From: Gammaproteobacteria bacterium
Lineage (GTDB): Bacteria > Pseudomonadota > Gammaproteobacteria > SpSt-1174
Assembly: GCA_037388465.1 (NCBI GenBank)
Contig: JARRKE010000008.1
Location: 1-55,554, forward strand
Length of the DNA stretch: 55,554 nucleotides
Direction: 5' to 3'
The notes beneath the pieces were generated by a model. It did no database searches. It saw only the letters and a list, made by a program, of their open reading frames with translations, and had not been told where the DNA came from. The position numbers and the translations under genes were made by a program. Every line of letters begins with the position of its first letter. Within the stretch, counting starts at the first letter, position 1. This document shows, piece by piece, positions 39,938 to 49,529 of the stretch.

Positions 39938-39991
39938 TCGCGGGCTTTATCCGCTGACAGCTACGAATTTTTATCATCAGAGGGTATGAAG

Positions 39992-41458
39992 ATGGCGCAT
40001 ACCGCGATCGGTTCAAGCGAACAGTACAACTACGATATCGTACGAAAGTTCGCCATTATGGCCGTTATTTGGGCCATAATCGGCATGTCCGTTGGGGTGT
40101 GGATCGCGTCCGAGTTGGCGTGGCCCTTCCACATCAACATGAACATGGACATCCCCTACATCACGTTCGGGCGCTTGCGTCCTGTTCACACCAGTGCGGT
40201 GTTGTTCGGGTTTGCGGCTAACGCCCTGTTTGCCACCTCGTTCTATGTGGTACAGCGCACCTGCCAGGCCCGCCTGTACAGCAGCGACCTGCTGGCCAAG
40301 ATCATCCTGTACGGATGGAACATCACGGTTGCTCTGGGCGTGATCAGCTACATGCTGGGCTACACCCAGTCGCGCGAGTACGCCGAGTTCGAATGGCCCT
40401 TTGACATCGCGATCGCGGTGCTCTGGATCTTCTATTTCTGGATCTATGTCCAGACCCTGCGCCGCCGTTCCCAGCCGCACATCTACGTGGCCAACTGGTT
40501 CTACATGGGCTACATCCTGGCGGTGGGTATTCTTCATATTTTCAATAACTTGGCGGTCCCCGTCAGCATGCTGGAGATGAAGTCCTACTCGCTGTTCTCC
40601 GGCGTGCAGGACGCCATGACCCAGTGGTGGTACGGCCACAACATGGTGGGCTTCCTGCTCACCGCCGCCTTCCTGGGCATGATGTACTACTTCGTGCCCA
40701 AGCAGGCCGGCCGCCCGGTGTATTCCTATCGCCTGTCGATCGTCCACTTCTGGGCGCTGGTGTTCCTGTACATGTGGGTGGGCGCGCACCATCTGCACTG
40801 GACCGCGCTGCCCGACTGGACCTCGACCCTGGCCGCGACCTTCTCGATCCTGCTGCTGATGCCTTCCTGGGGCGGCATGATCAACGGCATCATGACCCTC
40901 TCGGGCGCCTGGGATAAGCTGCGCACCGACCCGATCATGCTGTTCCTGATCACCGGCCTGTCCTTCTACGGCATGTCCACCTTCGAAGGCCCGATGATGG
41001 CGCTGAAGAGCGTCAACGCCCTGTCGCACTACACCGACTGGACCATCGGCCACGTGCATTCCGGCGCCCTGGGCTGGGTGGCGATGATCACCTTCGGCTC
41101 CTTCTATCACATGGTGCCGCGTCTCTGGGACACCAAGCTGTACAGCAACCGTTTGGTCTACGTGCACTTCTTCCTGGCCACCATCGGCATCATCCTCTAC
41201 ATCGTCGCGATGTGGGTGGCCGGTATCGGTCAGGGCCTGATGCTGCGCGCCTTCGATCAGTACGGCAACCTGGCGTACACGTTCGTCGAATCCGTGGTGT
41301 TCCTGCACGTGCCTTACATCACGCGCATGATCGGCGGCATGTTCTTCCTCTCTGGTGCGATTGTCATGGCGTACAACTTCTATATGACGGTTGTGACCGC
41401 CAAGCGTGAGCAGGCGGCTATCGAGGCCAAGATCGCATCCAAGATGGCCAATGCCTGA
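39992..41458 (+). CDS. ccoN: cbb3-type cytochrome c oxidase subunit I
   Basis: 488 residues from ATG 39992; AGAGGG lies 7 bp upstream, while an ATG 6 bp earlier sits against that site. Twelve membrane helices. C-family marks include [17 protein letters not shown] (low-spin heme His), [24 protein letters not shown] (CuB His pair) and [15 protein letters not shown] (heme ligands). The enzyme reduces O2 at low oxygen tension with high affinity. It starts the ccoNOQP unit. Confidence 0.97.
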
Positions 41459-41477
41459 TCGAGCGGAGTAAAACAAC

Positions 41478-42212
41478 ATGAAGCACGAAAGCATTGAAAC
41501 GAATGCCGGCCTGCTGGTGATCCTGACCCTGCTGGTCATCAGCATCGGCGGGCTGGTCGAAATCGTCCCGCTGTTCTACCTCAAGGGGACCGTGGAAAAG
41601 GTGGACGGCATCCGTCCCTACACCCCGCTGGAACTGCGCGGTCGCGACATCTATCAGCGCGAAGGCTGCTATCTCTGCCACTCGCAGATGGTTCGTCCCT
41701 TCCGTGACGAGGAACTGCGTTACGGCCATTACTCGCTGGCGGCCGAGTCGAAGTACGACCATCCGTTCCAGTGGGGTTCCAAGCGTACCGGTCCGGACCT
41801 CGCTCGCGTGGGTGGCAAGTACTCCAATGCGTGGCAGGTGCAGCACCTGATCGATCCGCGTTCGGTTGTGCCGGAATCCATCATGCCGGACTTCCCGTGG
41901 CTGATTAAGGACGACCTGGCCTATTCCGATATCGCCGAACGTATGGAGGCCTTGAAGAAGGTCGGTGTGCCGTACTCCAGCACGAAGCAGGAATACGACG
42001 CCAACGTGAAGCGGTTCGGCGAAAAGACTGCCAAGATGCTCGACATCAACCATGCTCAGGACAACCTGATCAAGCAGGCTGAGCAGGGCGACTACGATGG
42101 TATCCCCGACCGCATCACCGAGATGGATGCGCTGGTTGCATACCTGCAGATGCTGGGCACCCTGGTCGATTTCCAGAAATACAGCCAGGACTACTTCGTC
42201 CAGTTCCGTTGA
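41478..42212 (+). CDS. ccoO: cbb3-type oxidase monoheme cytochrome c subunit
   Basis: 244 residues. An N-terminal membrane helix ([20 protein letters not shown]) anchors a periplasmic domain. The single heme motif is CYLCHSQM, with the Met ligand region at [22 protein letters not shown] and the [16 protein letters not shown] block are typical of CcoO. It passes electrons from CcoP to CcoN. Confidence 0.97.
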
Positions 42213-42269
42213 TGTCTGAGGCCGGCGGTCTGATGGCCGCCGGCTGAAACCGACAGCGGGTAATGAGAT

Positions 42270-42491
42270 TTGGAAAAGATTTGGTCAACAATCGAAGCAA
42301 TAGCGACCAGCCCCCTGACCGCGTTGTTTCTATTGTTCCCGCTGTTCATCGGCATTGTCGTTTACGTCTACTCAGGTAAGCGGCGCTCGGAGCGGTTGGA
42401 AAGCTACCGGTATATCCCGCTCCAGGACGGCGATGATGAGGCAGATATAGATAAAGAACAGAAGGCAGATCACCATGAGCAACGCAGCTGA
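42270..42491 (+). CDS. ccoQ: cbb3-type oxidase subunit CcoQ
   Basis: 73 residues from a TTG start. One membrane helix (ALFLLFPLFIGIVVYVYS) is followed by the CcoQ-like basic motif GKRRSERLESY and an acidic tail. CcoQ stabilises the cbb3 complex and can modulate its activity. The 3' end overlaps ccoP by 17 bp. Confidence 0.88.
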   Translation: MEKIWSTIEAIATSPLTALFLLFPLFIGIVVYVYSGKRRSERLESYRYIPLQDGDDEADIDKEQKADHHEQRS

Positions 42492-43416
42492 CAAGAAACA
42501 GACCGGCGCTGTCCAGACAACGGGGCACGCCTGGGATGGCGACCTTCAGGAATACAACAACCCGCTTCCGCGTTGGTGGGTGTGGGCGTTCTACGGCACC
42601 GTCGTCTTCGCCGTGGTTTACTGGTTTCTCTATCCTGCATGGCCGGTCGGTACCTCCTTCACCAAGGGTTTCGATACCGTCACCTACGAGGTGAAACAGG
42701 ACGGCAAGGAGGTCAAGAAGACCGTTCCGTGGAACACCCGTGCACGGCTGATGTACGAAGATGAGTACGGTGCGGAAGCGGAAAAGCAGCGCGCTTACCT
42801 CAAGAAGATCGAGGGCAGCTCCTACGCGCAGATCCTGTCCAATCCGGACATGATGGCCTTTGTGCGTTCCTACGCGAAGACCCTGTTCGGCGACAACTGC
42901 GCCGTGTGCCACCAGGCCGGCGGCACGGGCGTGGTCGGACACTACCCGAACCTGGCGGACGACTCCTGGCTGTGGGGCGGAACGGTGCGGGAAATCCAGC
43001 ACACCATTACCGCGGGTCACCACGGCTTCATGCCTTCGTTCCGTCCGACCTTCAGCGACGCCCAGGCGCATGACGTCGCCGAATACGTGCTGAGCCTGTC
43101 GGGCACCAAGGGCGGCGATGAAAAGGCCATCATGCGCGGCGAGAAGATCTTCCACGGCCAGGAAGGCGGTTGCTATTACTGCCACGGCGAGAAGGCCACG
43201 GGGCTGATCTCGCAGGGTTCCGCGAATCTGACCGACCATGTCTGGACTATCGCCAACGTTCCCGCCGCCAAGACCTATGATGAAAAGGTCGCCGCCGTGG
43301 AACATGTGATCCTGCACGGTGTCTCACGTGTGATGCCGACCTGGCAGGGCCGCCTTTCGTCCACGCAGATCAAGCTGCTGACGGTTTACGTCCACGAACT
43401 CGGCGGCGGTCAGTAA
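42475..43416 (+). CDS. ccoP: cbb3-type oxidase diheme cytochrome c subunit
   Basis: 313 residues. HAWDGDLQEYNNPLPRWWVW leads into one membrane helix, and the periplasmic part has two class I cytochrome c domains with heme motifs CAVCH (about 143) and CYYCH (about 225); Met ligands are in HGFMPSF and RVMPTWQ. It accepts electrons from soluble or membrane cytochromes. GAAGG lies upstream of the ATG. The gene is followed by a terminator. Confidence 0.97.
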   Translation: MSNAADKKQTGAVQTTGHAWDGDLQEYNNPLPRWWVWAFYGTVVFAVVYWFLYPAWPVGTSFTKGFDTVTYEVKQDGKEVKKTVPWNTRARLMYEDEYGAEAEKQRAYLKKIEGSSYAQILSNPDMMAFVRSYAKTLFGDNCAVCHQAGGTGVVGHYPNLADDSWLWGGTVREIQHTITAGHHGFMPSFRPTFSDAQAHDVAEYVLSLSGTKGGDEKAIMRGEKIFHGQEGGCYYCHGEKATGLISQGSANLTDHVWTIANVPAAKTYDEKVAAVEHVILHGVSRVMPTWQGRLSSTQIKLLTVYVHELGGGQ

Positions 43417-43494: not shown

Positions 43495-44898
43495 ATGAGC
43501 GAATCCACAGAGTCTCTATTCGAGGGGCGCATACCAATCTATCCGCGCTCCGTGAAGGGGCGTTTTCGTTATATCAAATGGGGCGTTCTCGCCCTGGCCT
43601 ACGGTGTTTACTTCCTGCTGCCCTGGATCCGCTGGGCACGCCCCACCGGCCCCGACCAGGCCGTGCTGTTCGACCTCAATACCCGCCTGTTTTATATCTT
43701 CGGTCTGGTGGTTCATCCCCAGGATATTTTCTGGCTGGCGGGTTTCCTGCTGCTGGCGGCGTTGTTGCTGTTTTTCGTAACCGGCATCCTCGGCCGCGTG
43801 TTTTGCGGTTATTTCTGTTTCCAGACGTTGTGGACCGACGTGTTCATCATGGTGGAGCGCCTGGTTCAGGGGGAACGCCCGGCGCGCATCCGGCTGGCCA
43901 AGCAACCGTGGAATTTCGAAAAGATTTTCAAGCTCGGCGCCACGCACGTGTTGTGGCTGCTGGTGGCGATGCTGACCGGTCTCACCTTTACGCTGTACTG
44001 GGCGGACGCGCCGCAGCTGACGCTGCAGTTCTTCACCGGCAAGGCGCCATTCCCGGCCTATGCCACCACGGCGTTTCTGACCGCCACCACCTACGTCATG
44101 GCCGGTCTGGCGCGGGAGCAGGTGTGCACCTACATGTGCCCCTATGCGCGTTTCCAGAGCGTGATGTTCGATCGAGATACCCTGATCGTGTCTTACGATC
44201 AGGGTCGTGGTGAAGGACAGGCGGGACGCCACAAGGTAAACAAGCAGCTGAAGACGCATGACCAGCGGCAGGCAGCCGGTGTCGGCGACTGCATCGACTG
44301 CGGATACTGCGTGCAGGTCTGTCCGACCGGTATCGATATCCGCAATGGCCTGCAGGTGTCATGTATCCACTGCGCGCTTTGTGTCGATGCCTGTGACAAC
44401 ATCATGGATAACATGGGCTGGCCGCGCGGGTTGATACGCTACACCTCGGAAAACGAACTGGAAGGCAAGAAGACCCGTTTCCTGAAGGGCAAGACCTTCG
44501 GTTACGGGGCAGCGATCGCCATCGTGCTCGGCCTGCTGCTGTGGAGCATGACGCATTCGACCAAATACGATGCCGTGTCGCGCCAGATCCGCCAGCCGCT
44601 GTACGTGGTGATGTCCGACGGCAGTATCCAGAACAGCTACGAGCTCAAGATCAACAACAAGACGCAGAGCCCGCTCACGCTGACGGTCGGGCTCGACGGG
44701 CTTAAAGGCGCCGTGCTGGATGTCGGCAACTTCAAGAACTTCACCATTCCGCCCGAACAGTACCTGCGCGTGCTGGTGCGTGTGCGCTTTCCCGGCAATA
44801 CCGCCACTCCCGAGGATCATGATTTTTCATTCGTGCTGACGCCGCAGAACGGCAAGATCCCGCCGATCAAGGTGCCAGCGCGGTTTTATACCCCCTGA
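43495..44898 (+). CDS. ccoG: Cytochrome c oxidase accessory protein CcoG (polyferredoxin-like)
   Basis: 467 residues from ATG 43495; the frame is open upstream through the terminator, which argues against an earlier start. Four to five membrane helices flank a cytosolic ferredoxin region with two 4Fe-4S sets, CIDCGYCVQVC and CIHCALCVDAC. YFCFQTLW and CTYMCPYARFQ are further Cys motifs typical of RdxA/CcoG. The C-terminal periplasmic domain is immunoglobulin-like. CcoG is involved in Cu(II) reduction for cbb3 maturation. Confidence 0.95.
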   Translation: MSESTESLFEGRIPIYPRSVKGRFRYIKWGVLALAYGVYFLLPWIRWARPTGPDQAVLFDLNTRLFYIFGLVVHPQDIFWLAGFLLLAALLLFFVTGILGRVFCGYFCFQTLWTDVFIMVERLVQGERPARIRLAKQPWNFEKIFKLGATHVLWLLVAMLTGLTFTLYWADAPQLTLQFFTGKAPFPAYATTAFLTATTYVMAGLAREQVCTYMCPYARFQSVMFDRDTLIVSYDQGRGEGQAGRHKVNKQLKTHDQRQAAGVGDCIDCGYCVQVCPTGIDIRNGLQVSCIHCALCVDACDNIMDNMGWPRGLIRYTSENELEGKKTRFLKGKTFGYGAAIAIVLGLLLWSMTHSTKYDAVSRQIRQPLYVVMSDGSIQNSYELKINNKTQSPLTLTVGLDGLKGAVLDVGNFKNFTIPPEQYLRVLVRVRFPGNTATPEDHDFSFVLTPQNGKIPPIKVPARFYTP

Positions 44899-44909: not shown

Positions 44910-45749
44910 ATGAGCAGTCTGGTAACAAGTCTGGGAATCGGCGTCGGTCTGGCCTTCCTGGCCTTCGTCCTGATCTACAAGTTCACGCCGCTGCGCGGCA
45001 AGCAGGTCTCGTTGATCGTCAGCATGGGCGCGATGCTCGCGTTCCTGCCCTATGCGATCACCCATTGGGAAGGCCTGGACGTGCTGGCCGTGCATATCGC
45101 TTTTTACCTTGTCGTGCCGTACGTGCTCGGCATCATCACCTCCACCTGGGAGATGCGCGAACAACACGAGGGCAAGGACGAAAACGCCCGCTGGTTTCAC
45201 TGGGCGCCGACCATCATCGTGCTGTTCTTCCTGGGGCTCGCCACCGTCGATGCGGTCATCGTCACCCTGTCCAGCAAGGGTCTTTCCCAGCATATGGCTG
45301 CACTGCTGCTGCCCAAGCCCGACGAGGGCGTGAAGGTGACCTCCTACTTCCCCGGCACGGTGCTGCATAACTATCAGATGAAGGAAGGCCAGTACGACGC
45401 CTATCTGGCCAGGATGAAACAGCAGGCGGCGCTGCACTGGACCGTGAAAAAAGGCTTCTCCGACAAGCCGATGGCCAACCGCAAGCAGGTCTTCGAGGTG
45501 GAGATACTGGACCGCGATGGCGTGCCGGTGACCGGTGCCCATGTCGAGGCGAATTTCCTGCGTGCGTCCAATGAGCGTCTGGACCAGATCCATGTGCTCA
45601 AGGAGATGCGCCCCGGTCTTTACCGGGGACAGGTCATGCTGCCGCTGCCGGGCTACTGGGACGTGTTCCTGCGGATCAACCACGGCAAGGACAGCTACGA
45701 GGACAAGGCCATGACCGAGGTTTTCAAAGCACCCGGTCGGACTTCGTGA
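44910..45749 (+). CDS. ccoH: CcoH/FixH family protein with extra N-terminal membrane helices
   Basis: 279 residues, longer than the usual ~150-170 of FixH. Four hydrophobic helices (ending near VIVTLSS, residue about 118) precede the FixH-like region, whose C-terminal part contains DRDGVPVTGAHVEANFLRA and GLYRGQVMLPLPGYWDVFLR. Standard FixH has one helix, so the N-terminal half is an addition. FixH is needed for cbb3 assembly or stability. It starts 11 bp after ccoG. Assignment to ccoH rests on position and the C-terminal part. Confidence 0.78.
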   Translation: MSSLVTSLGIGVGLAFLAFVLIYKFTPLRGKQVSLIVSMGAMLAFLPYAITHWEGLDVLAVHIAFYLVVPYVLGIITSTWEMREQHEGKDENARWFHWAPTIIVLFFLGLATVDAVIVTLSSKGLSQHMAALLLPKPDEGVKVTSYFPGTVLHNYQMKEGQYDAYLARMKQQAALHWTVKKGFSDKPMANRKQVFEVEILDRDGVPVTGAHVEANFLRASNERLDQIHVLKEMRPGLYRGQVMLPLPGYWDVFLRINHGKDSYEDKAMTEVFKAPGRTS

Positions 45750-45790: not shown

Positions 45791-48229
45791 GTGGCGGACG
45801 AACACGATCATAGCTGTTACCACTGCGGTCTGCCCGTGCCGCCCGACACCGATTATTCGGTGCAGATCGGTGGCGAGCGGCGCGCCATGTGTTGTCCGGG
45901 TTGTCAGGCGGTGGCGCAGGCCATCGTCGATGCCGGTCTTACCGATTACTACAAGCACCGCACCCGCGACAATGTGACGGCCCAGGCCCTGGTGCCGGAC
46001 ATCCTGCGCGAATACGACCTCTACGACCGCGACGACCTGCAAAAGAGTTTCGTCCGTACCGAAGCCGAAAACGTCCGCGAAGCGTCGCTGATCCTCGAAG
46101 GCATCGTCTGCGCCGCCTGCGTCTGGCTCAACGAGCGCCACGTACGCGCCCTGGACGGGGTGTTGGAATTCAACGTCAATTACGCCACCCACCGCGCCCA
46201 GGTGAAGTGGGACAACGCCCAGATCCACCTCAGCGACATCCTCAAGGCGATCGCCGCCATCGGTTACCGCGCCCACCCCTTCGACCCCAATCGCCAGGAA
46301 GCCCTGCACAAGAAGGAACGCAACGCGGCGCTCAGGCGCATCGCCGTGGCCGGCGTGGGCATGATGCAGGTGATGATGATCGCGGTGGGGTTGTACGCCG
46401 GGGATTATTCCGGGATGTCGCCCGACATCCGCAATTTCCTGCGCTGGGTCAGTCTGCTGCTGGCCACGCCGGTGGTGTTTTATTCCGGGCGTGTGTTCTT
46501 CCTCTCGGCGTGGCGGGATCTGAAAAAACGCCAGCTGGGCATGGACGTGCCGGTGTCGATCGCGGTCGGTGCGGCCTACGTGGCGAGCGCCTGGGCGACC
46601 GTGCGTCAGGTCGGCGATGTCTATTTCGACTCGGTCACCATGTTCGTGTTTTTCCTGCTGGTGGGGCGTTTCCTGGAGCTGCTGGCACGCCACAAGGCGG
46701 GGGAGGCCGGAGAGGATCTCATCCGCCTGCTGCCGACCGGTGCGACCCGGCTGGTAGACGGACGTACCGAAGTGGTGACGGTGAACGACCTGGAGACCGG
46801 CGACCGGGTGCTGATCCGCCCGGGGGAGGTCGTGCCGGCGGACGGGGTGGTGGTCGAGGGCACCAGCAGTATCAACGAGGCCCTGCTCACCGGCGAAAGC
46901 CTGCCCCGCCGGCGCGGCGTCGGCGAGGAACTGGTGGGCGGAACGTTGAATGTCGAGTCGCCGCTGCAAATGGATGTGACGCACGTGGGCGGCGATACCG
47001 TGCTGTCCTCCATCGTGCGCCTGCTGGACCGCGCCCAGATGGAAAAGCCGCGCCTGGCCCAGCTTGCCGACCGGGTGGCGGGCTGGTTCGTCGGCGCCCT
47101 GCTGCTGGTGGCGGTGGGAGTATTCGCCTTCTGGTACTGGTACGCGCCGCACGAGGCGTTCTGGATCACCCTCTCGGTGCTGGTCGTGACCTGCCCCTGC
47201 GCACTGTCCCTGGCCACGCCCGTGGCGTTGACGGCGGCGACCGGCACCTTGACCCAGCTCGGCGTGCTGACCTCCCGCGGGCATGCCCTGGAAACCCTTT
47301 CCAAGGTTACGCACATGGTGTTCGACAAGACCGGCACGCTTACCTACGGGCGGCTTGAGCTGGCCGACGTGGAGGTGCGCGGGGACCTGGACCGGGATAC
47401 CTGCCTCAATATCGCGGCCGGTCTGGAGCAGGGCTCGGAGCATCCCGTGGCCCAGGCCCTGCGCGCCGCCGCCGAGTTCCCGGCCATGGTGAGCGATACG
47501 GTGGCGGAATCCGGGCGCGGGATCAGCGCAATGGTCGACGGTCGGCGTTATCGCCTGGGACGATGGGAATACGTTTTCCCGGGCAAGACCGACGCCGACC
47601 TACCGACGCCGCCGGCCGGCGTGAGTCAGGTGGTGCTGGGCGAGGACGACCGGCTGCTGGCGGTATTCAGCCTGCGTGATCAGGTACGCGAGGAGGCGCG
47701 GCGCGCCATCGAGCGCCTCAAGTCGCAAGGCATCCAGGTCGTCCTGCTGAGCGGAGACCAGCCCGCCGTGGCCGCGCGGGTGGCCGAAGAGGTGGGTATC
47801 GACACCTGGTCGGGCGGCCTGCTACCGGATGGCAAGCTGGCGGAATTGCGCCGTCTGCAGGCGGCGGGGGCGGTGACCGCGATGGTGGGCGACGGCGTGA
47901 ACGACGCCCCGGTGCTGGCCGGCGCCCAGGTCTCAGTCGCCATGGGCAGCGGGGCGCAGCTGGCGCATGCCTCGGCGGACATGGTGCTGTTGTCGGAAAA
48001 CCTCATGCACCTGTCCGATGCGGTGGAGATGGCGCGTCGTACACTGGCCGTGATCCGCCAGAATCTGGCTTGGGCGGTGGTTTATAATGTGGTTGCCCTG
48101 CCGTTGGCGGCCGCCGGGGTGATCCTGCCCTGGATGGCGGCGGTGGGAATGTCGGCCAGTTCGCTGATGGTGGTGATCAATGCCCTGCGTCTCAAGAACC
48201 CGCCCCGCTCGATGCGGTCCAAGTTTTGA
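45791..48229 (+). CDS. ccoI: Copper-exporting P1B-type ATPase CcoI/FixI
   Basis: 812 residues, GTG start with GGGAGA upstream. A Cys-rich N-terminus (CYHCGLPVP and CCPGCQAV) precedes a heavy-metal-associated domain with CAAC in IVCAACVWL. The membrane CPC motif is VVTCPCALSLATP, the phosphorylation motif is DKTGTLT and the hinge is GDGVNDAPVL. This FixI subgroup supplies copper to cbb3 oxidase rather than giving resistance. It is part of the ccoGHIS set. Confidence 0.96.
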   Translation: MADEHDHSCYHCGLPVPPDTDYSVQIGGERRAMCCPGCQAVAQAIVDAGLTDYYKHRTRDNVTAQALVPDILREYDLYDRDDLQKSFVRTEAENVREASLILEGIVCAACVWLNERHVRALDGVLEFNVNYATHRAQVKWDNAQIHLSDILKAIAAIGYRAHPFDPNRQEALHKKERNAALRRIAVAGVGMMQVMMIAVGLYAGDYSGMSPDIRNFLRWVSLLLATPVVFYSGRVFFLSAWRDLKKRQLGMDVPVSIAVGAAYVASAWATVRQVGDVYFDSVTMFVFFLLVGRFLELLARHKAGEAGEDLIRLLPTGATRLVDGRTEVVTVNDLETGDRVLIRPGEVVPADGVVVEGTSSINEALLTGESLPRRRGVGEELVGGTLNVESPLQMDVTHVGGDTVLSSIVRLLDRAQMEKPRLAQLADRVAGWFVGALLLVAVGVFAFWYWYAPHEAFWITLSVLVVTCPCALSLATPVALTAATGTLTQLGVLTSRGHALETLSKVTHMVFDKTGTLTYGRLELADVEVRGDLDRDTCLNIAAGLEQGSEHPVAQALRAAAEFPAMVSDTVAESGRGISAMVDGRRYRLGRWEYVFPGKTDADLPTPPAGVSQVVLGEDDRLLAVFSLRDQVREEARRAIERLKSQGIQVVLLSGDQPAVAARVAEEVGIDTWSGGLLPDGKLAELRRLQAAGAVTAMVGDGVNDAPVLAGAQVSVAMGSGAQLAHASADMVLLSENLMHLSDAVEMARRTLAVIRQNLAWAVVYNVVALPLAAAGVILPWMAAVGMSASSLMVVINALRLKNPPRSMRSKF

Positions 48230-48253: not shown

Positions 48254-48445
48254 ATGAGTATTCTTTATTTGCTGATTCCCATCGGGATCGTACTGATGGT
48301 CATCGCGCTGGTGTTTTTCGCCTGGACGGTGAAGAGCGGCCAGTACGACGACCTGGAGGGGGTCTCCCACCGGATTCTGATGGACGACGACGACCCGCGC
48401 ATTCCCCAGCGGAACAAGCAGGATTCCTTGCAGGACAAGGACTGA
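48254..48445 (+). CDS. ccoS: cbb3-type oxidase assembly protein CcoS
   Basis: 63 residues. One N-terminal membrane helix (LLIPIGIVLMVIALVFFAW) is followed by the CcoS signature AWTVKSGQYDDLEG and DDDDPRIP. CcoS is required for cofactor insertion into CcoN. It starts 24 bp after ccoI. Confidence 0.95.
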   Translation: MSILYLLIPIGIVLMVIALVFFAWTVKSGQYDDLEGVSHRILMDDDDPRIPQRNKQDSLQDKD

Positions 48446-48496
48446 TTGAGTAGCATAGCCACCCGATTTGTACGACTTTAAAGCGCAGGAGCCGCC

Positions 48497-48586
48497 ATGT
48501 TTTACAACAAGCTTCCCCTTTACCTGATCATTGCGCTGATTGTCTGGTCCTGGATCAGTTTCTTCTCGGTGCTGATCGCGCACTGA
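48497..48586 (+). CDS. Tiny single-helix membrane protein downstream of ccoS
   Basis: 29 residues from ATG 48497, with AGGAG at 48487-48490 giving a good ribosome site. It starts MFYNKLPLY, continues as one hydrophobic stretch of about 18 residues (LIIALIVWSWISFFSVLI) and ends AH. The next feature is the operon terminator 15 bp after the stop. The size and place suggest an accessory helix for cbb3 oxidase, comparable in kind to CcoQ or the small CcoM subunit known from pseudomonads, though no sequence relation to these was established. Confidence 0.65.
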   Translation: MFYNKLPLYLIIALIVWSWISFFSVLIAH

Positions 48587-48600
48587 TTCACGATCGGCAT

Positions 48601-48646
48601 CATCAAACGAAAAAGGCTCCCGGAGGGGAGCCTTTTTCGTTTGATG
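48601..48646. terminator. Strong bidirectional intrinsic terminator between the cco operon and rpoH
   Basis: Perfect 21-bp inverted repeat (48601-48621 with 48626-48646), loop GGAG. The GGCTCCC core is flanked by five A and five T. It serves the rightward cco operon and the leftward rpoH gene at once. Confidence 0.93.

Positions 48647-48665: not shown

Positions 48666-49529
<864 letters not shown>

Follow-up and report, generated by a model that had tools for sequence, protein, structure and literature searches.

The 29-codon reading frame that directly follows ccoS in the window, meaning the whole analysed stretch of 55,554 nucleotides, quite probably belongs to an unnamed family of single-transmembrane proteins, mostly 26-39 amino acids long, which are dedicated to the cbb3-type cytochrome c oxidase, a low-oxygen respiratory enzyme, and whose helix would aid the assembly or stability of CcoN. 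The proposal draws on codon-level conservation, gene neighbourhood and co-occurrence across genomes.

A micro-ORF downstream of ccoS

The micro-ORF (48497-48586, forward strand) starts with an ATG at 48497, ends with a TGA at 48584-48586 and encodes a predicted single-helix membrane protein of 29 amino acids, MFYNKLPLYLIIALIVWSWISFFSVLIAH, in which the maximal 19-residue Kyte-Doolittle mean is 2.49. It is preceded by the Shine-Dalgarno sequence AGGAG (48487-48491), 5 nt 5' of the ATG. Upstream and on the same strand, the genes are arranged in the order ccoN, ccoO, ccoQ-like, ccoP (structural genes, 39986-43416, ccoN start approximate), ccoG (FixG; 43495-44898, start approximate), ccoH (FixH; 44910-45749), ccoI (FixI, a copper P-type ATPase; 45791-48229) and ccoS (FixS, 63 amino acids; 48254-48445). 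The latter matches PF03597 (5e-21) and, above the cut-off, TIGR00847; it is located immediately 5' of the micro-ORF, with a gap of 51 nt. The ccoQ-like gene (42270-42491) matches FixQ below the Pfam cut-off (24.3 vs 29 bits) and represents a divergent CcoQ.

On the other side, the convergent neighbour is rpoH, encoding sigma-32 (48666-49529, reverse strand). At about 48601-48646, 3' of the micro-ORF stop, the sequence forms a hairpin with a perfect 21-bp stem and a 4-nt loop, T-rich on both strands (z = -4.5 for the region), which a simple terminator scan of the window did not report. As it lies between the convergent ORFs, with rpoH ending at 48666, the hairpin is a probable bidirectional terminator common to the cco operon and rpoH. 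Gene order, Shine-Dalgarno sequence and terminator together suggest that the micro-ORF is the last cistron of a ccoNOQP-GHIS operon. An earlier note on this DNA had described a well-placed ribosome site, an ATG, one hydrophobic helix and a stop before a terminator, and all of these features were recovered exactly (AGGAG, 48497, 48586 and the 21-bp hairpin).

Coding status of the micro-ORF

In a direct search, intact homologues were found in the window's own family (81% identity) as well as in distant families of the class. Homologues with an intact frame, Shine-Dalgarno sequence and stop occurred in more than 50 genomes, intact frames with a Shine-Dalgarno sequence were present at about 100 loci, and the frames that were read out are short ORFs, mostly preceded by Shine-Dalgarno-like sequences comparable to that of the window. 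Among close relatives, the pooled pN/pS was 0.15. In disjoint, independent pairs, 92 of 132 substitutions fell on third codon positions (27/13/92 for positions 1/2/3; p = 1.6e-17), and the window gene displayed the same tendency against its two nearest relatives (4/3/9 and 3/3/14).

Because of the low pN/pS and the third-position excess, we consider the question settled in favour of a protein gene, and the micro-ORF is almost certainly a real one. Conserved non-coding DNA or a chance ORF might be suspected from the very short frame and the adjoining terminator hairpin; in view of the synonymous excess and the number of loci at which the frame is intact and preceded by a Shine-Dalgarno sequence, this explanation is barely conceivable. 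Frame conservation, pN/pS, third-position excess and the recurrent Shine-Dalgarno sequence strongly support the earlier proposal that a real micro-protein is encoded here, too short for normal annotation cut-offs. The note had named loss of the frame or frameshifts in relatives as evidence against it; in the relatives, the frame is kept and substitutions are overwhelmingly synonymous.

Sequence and distribution of the family

The search yielded 101 distinct homologue sequences, the chain usually ending at position 29 or a few residues from it. They share the motif N-[FL]-P-[LM]-x5-L-x3-[SA]-W-x-S-F-[FL]-S-V. Most strongly conserved are V25 (101 of the 101 sequences), S21 (100), S24 and L14 (96 each), W19 (95) and F22 (93), followed by P7 (86) and N5 (75), and F/L6, L/M8, S/A18 and F/L23 are further motif positions. 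Residues 14, 18, 21, 22 and 25 share one side of the helix, which may be a packing face, the helical moment of conservation being only suggestive (p = 0.06). The N-terminal charges of family members are mixed.

A family profile built from ten homologues was searched against 369 sampled genomes of the class, and the genomes counted as carriers had a match of E ≤ 6e-4 that formed a short ORF of its own. This gave 53 carriers in 26 families. A further 48 loci were found in other genomes, including Thioalkalivibrio, Sulfuricella, Sulfuriferula multivorans and Plasticicumulans. A match in G203 (1.5e-5), which by eye resembles the first helix of an LptC-like protein, was rejected as a false positive and marks the noise level. 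No homologue was found in the plasmid collection, and no convincing one outside the class in the phylum sample. Carrier and non-carrier families are each fairly uniform internally, and this uniformity fits vertical descent.

Some genomes hold more than one copy. Two tandem copies are located beside rpoH at the loci L050 (6036-6351; genome G091), L051 (5925-6250; G076), L131 and L139; the copies within one genome are clearly divergent, suggesting an old duplication. A paralogue of 36-37 amino acids without the conserved Trp is present at L058 (4894-4971; G237:C7), where by eye it is positioned 5' of a polyphosphate kinase-like gene, and at L061 (G123:C2). Genome G173 has extra paralogues at L053 (4820-4879) and L054 (4898-4963), one of them near a coq7-like gene and the other, of 88 amino acids with a polar Gln/Ala-rich tail, near an htpX-like gene (neighbours assigned by eye).

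Linkage and co-occurrence with the cbb3 oxidase

In 46 of the 53 carriers, the micro gene directly follows ccoS on the same strand within 600 nt, and a convergent rpoH is found within 600 nt in 26. Linkage is to ccoS only in 27 carriers, to both ccoS and rpoH in 19 and to rpoH only in seven; for G037 and G108, the ccoS coordinates used in this count were those of their read-out loci. Among the rpoH-only carriers, ccoS lies 7.4 kb away on the same strand in G045 and G185, 1.5 kb away in G057 and on a different contig in G091, G076 and G305, and a contig break is possible in G069. At the 48 further loci, ccoI or ccoS was located upstream in 46, the remaining two being of the G045 type. The ancestral order was probably ccoI-ccoS-micro gene facing rpoH, with either side breakable. 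Despite broken linkage on either side, cbb3 is missing in no carrier of the sample. At one of these 46 loci (L106, in a Sulfuricellaceae genome), ccoS and the micro gene are separated by an ORF of 316 amino acids (1849-2799).

All 53 carriers were among the 185 of 369 genomes that bear ccoS, and the micro gene occurred in none of the 184 genomes lacking ccoS. The corresponding Fisher p of about 2e-18 (53/53 against a background of 185/369) is indicative only, as the genomes are related and the value overstates their independence. ccoN was present in all 15 genomes checked, most of which had been picked for broken or unclear linkage. The same association is found within families. In family f151, G263 has ccoN, ccoS, the micro gene and also rpoH, whereas in the complete, single-contig genome G357 neither ccoN nor ccoS nor the micro gene is present, and its rpoH is not accompanied by a micro-ORF. 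The same contrast exists in family f131 between G132 and G244, although G244 is only 84% complete.

Conversely, 132 of the 185 ccoS-bearing genomes had no detectable homologue, the non-carriers having been rechecked with a wider profile, so the micro gene is not universally needed for cbb3. A search for small hydrophobic replacement ORFs after ccoS in 20 non-carriers, in only 3 of which the regular expression recognised ccoS, produced no candidate. Taken from these genome comparisons, a functional tie between the micro gene and cbb3 appears very likely. The earlier idea of a cbb3 accessory helix therefore held in its general part, through the presence of ccoS in every carrier, the place after ccoI-ccoS and the absence together with cbb3 within a carrier family. 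For its narrower form, a subunit like CcoM or CcoQ, similarity to either was not detectable; as the gene accompanies the assembly genes ccoI-ccoS, the product may be an assembly factor or a subunit.

Comparison with known small proteins

Profile searches of Pfam, NCBIfam and PDB identified no relative of the micro-protein, and hits to Cadherin_C_2 and the mineralocorticoid receptor were dismissed as chance matches. No description of the family was found in the open-access literature, and the family is apparently undescribed. In RefSeq, members may figure as hypothetical proteins. CcoM of Pseudomonas stutzeri (PDB 5djq chain N, 36 amino acids) is likewise a single-helix micro-protein tied to cbb3, but has a charged C-terminal tail, whereas the window family ends at the helix. 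CcoQ/FixQ (PF05545) is also a small single-helix cbb3 protein from the same operon; none of the 53 members matched the PF05545 profile, and the window has its separate ccoQ-like gene. CcoS/FixS is a small single-helix protein of cbb3 biogenesis and is encoded by the adjoining upstream gene, but carries an acidic MDDDDP tail; the micro-protein lacks this tail, matches neither PF03597 nor TIGR00847 and is a separate gene. The cytochrome oxidase small assembly protein NF038351 (cyt_ox_assem_30, 30 amino acids) is alike in size and in its oxidase-assembly name, and its NCBIfam profile matched 0 of the 53 members. CydX of cytochrome bd resembles the present case in being a small helix whose gene closes an oxidase operon, but it belongs to another enzyme superfamily, and family members gave no match to CydX family profiles. 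CydX has been named as a small membrane protein (PMC10903887).

Discussion

According to the proposed role, the micro-protein would insert into the membrane as one helix and probably dock on an assembly intermediate or on the mature complex. One side of the helix, with many small and aromatic residues ([SA]18, W19, S21, F22, S24 and V25, together with L14), would pack on a membrane partner. This partner may be the oxidase or its assembly machinery, that is, CcoN, CcoI, CcoS or CcoH, and the packing may help cofactor-loaded CcoN to assemble or to stay assembled. The oxidase receives its copper through CcoI and CcoS; in Campylobacter jejuni, their deletion leaves hardly any oxidase activity, and an excess of copper brings part of it back (PMC8267372). 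The micro gene is positioned after ccoI-ccoS and usually occurs once per genome, also in several genomes that have two ccoN genes. We therefore favour a helix for assembly or stability over a subunit specific to one isoform.

The main alternative to an assembly factor is a permanent, CcoM-like subunit of mature cbb3, which would reside in a lipid-facing groove of CcoN and is a specific form of the idea of a cbb3 helix. Size, the single helix and the strict restriction to cbb3 genomes would suit such a subunit. In addition, a CcoM query (differing from 5djq chain N at one residue) found only G163 and, weakly, G364 among the 369 genomes, neither of which carries the micro gene, so CcoM and the micro-protein could be alternatives to each other; this CcoM distribution is, however, based on a single query sequence. 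The lack of sequence similarity to CcoM, a family profile that matches no cbb3 chain in PDB and a gene that travels with ccoI-ccoS rather than ccoNOP make the subunit role possible, but the less probable one.

Two further explanations would place the peptide outside the oxidase. Its target might be sigma-32 (RpoH), whose localisation or degradation by FtsH could, for instance, be controlled by a helix in the membrane, with the proximity of ccoS being incidental. The convergent rpoH near about half of the carriers' genes would agree with this, as would the seven carriers that keep rpoH with ccoS elsewhere, including those with tandem copies beside rpoH. However, the gene adjoins ccoS with no rpoH nearby in 27 carriers, it is confined to ccoS-bearing genomes, while every genome searched for rpoH had one, and G357 has rpoH without micro gene and cbb3, all of which renders a role in RpoH control improbable. 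A type I toxin or similar small hydrophobic toxic peptide, located at the operon end by chance, would also be a short hydrophobic helix and could occur in tandem copies. The largely vertical presence, the fixed place after ccoS, the absence where cbb3 is absent and the strong purifying selection on specific residues make a toxin highly improbable.

An assembly or stability helix for CcoN is our working model. Judged from the sequences and their distribution, it is likely that an unrecognised family of cbb3 micro-proteins is spread over many families of beta- and gammaproteobacteria, sulfur oxidisers in particular; it may act at the insertion of copper and heme by CcoI/CcoS or be a helix that the enzyme is missing in these lineages. 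CcoM, CydX and similar oxidase micro-proteins long escaped notice, being below the length at which genes are annotated. With the motif, the gene can be annotated at once in many genomes. By implication, cbb3 preparations or heterologous operons of carrier lineages that end at ccoS would be incomplete. Being widespread, linked to ccoI-ccoS and present in cultivable bacteria, the family would also offer a concrete way to study how copper and heme are inserted into CcoN, a step that is poorly understood.
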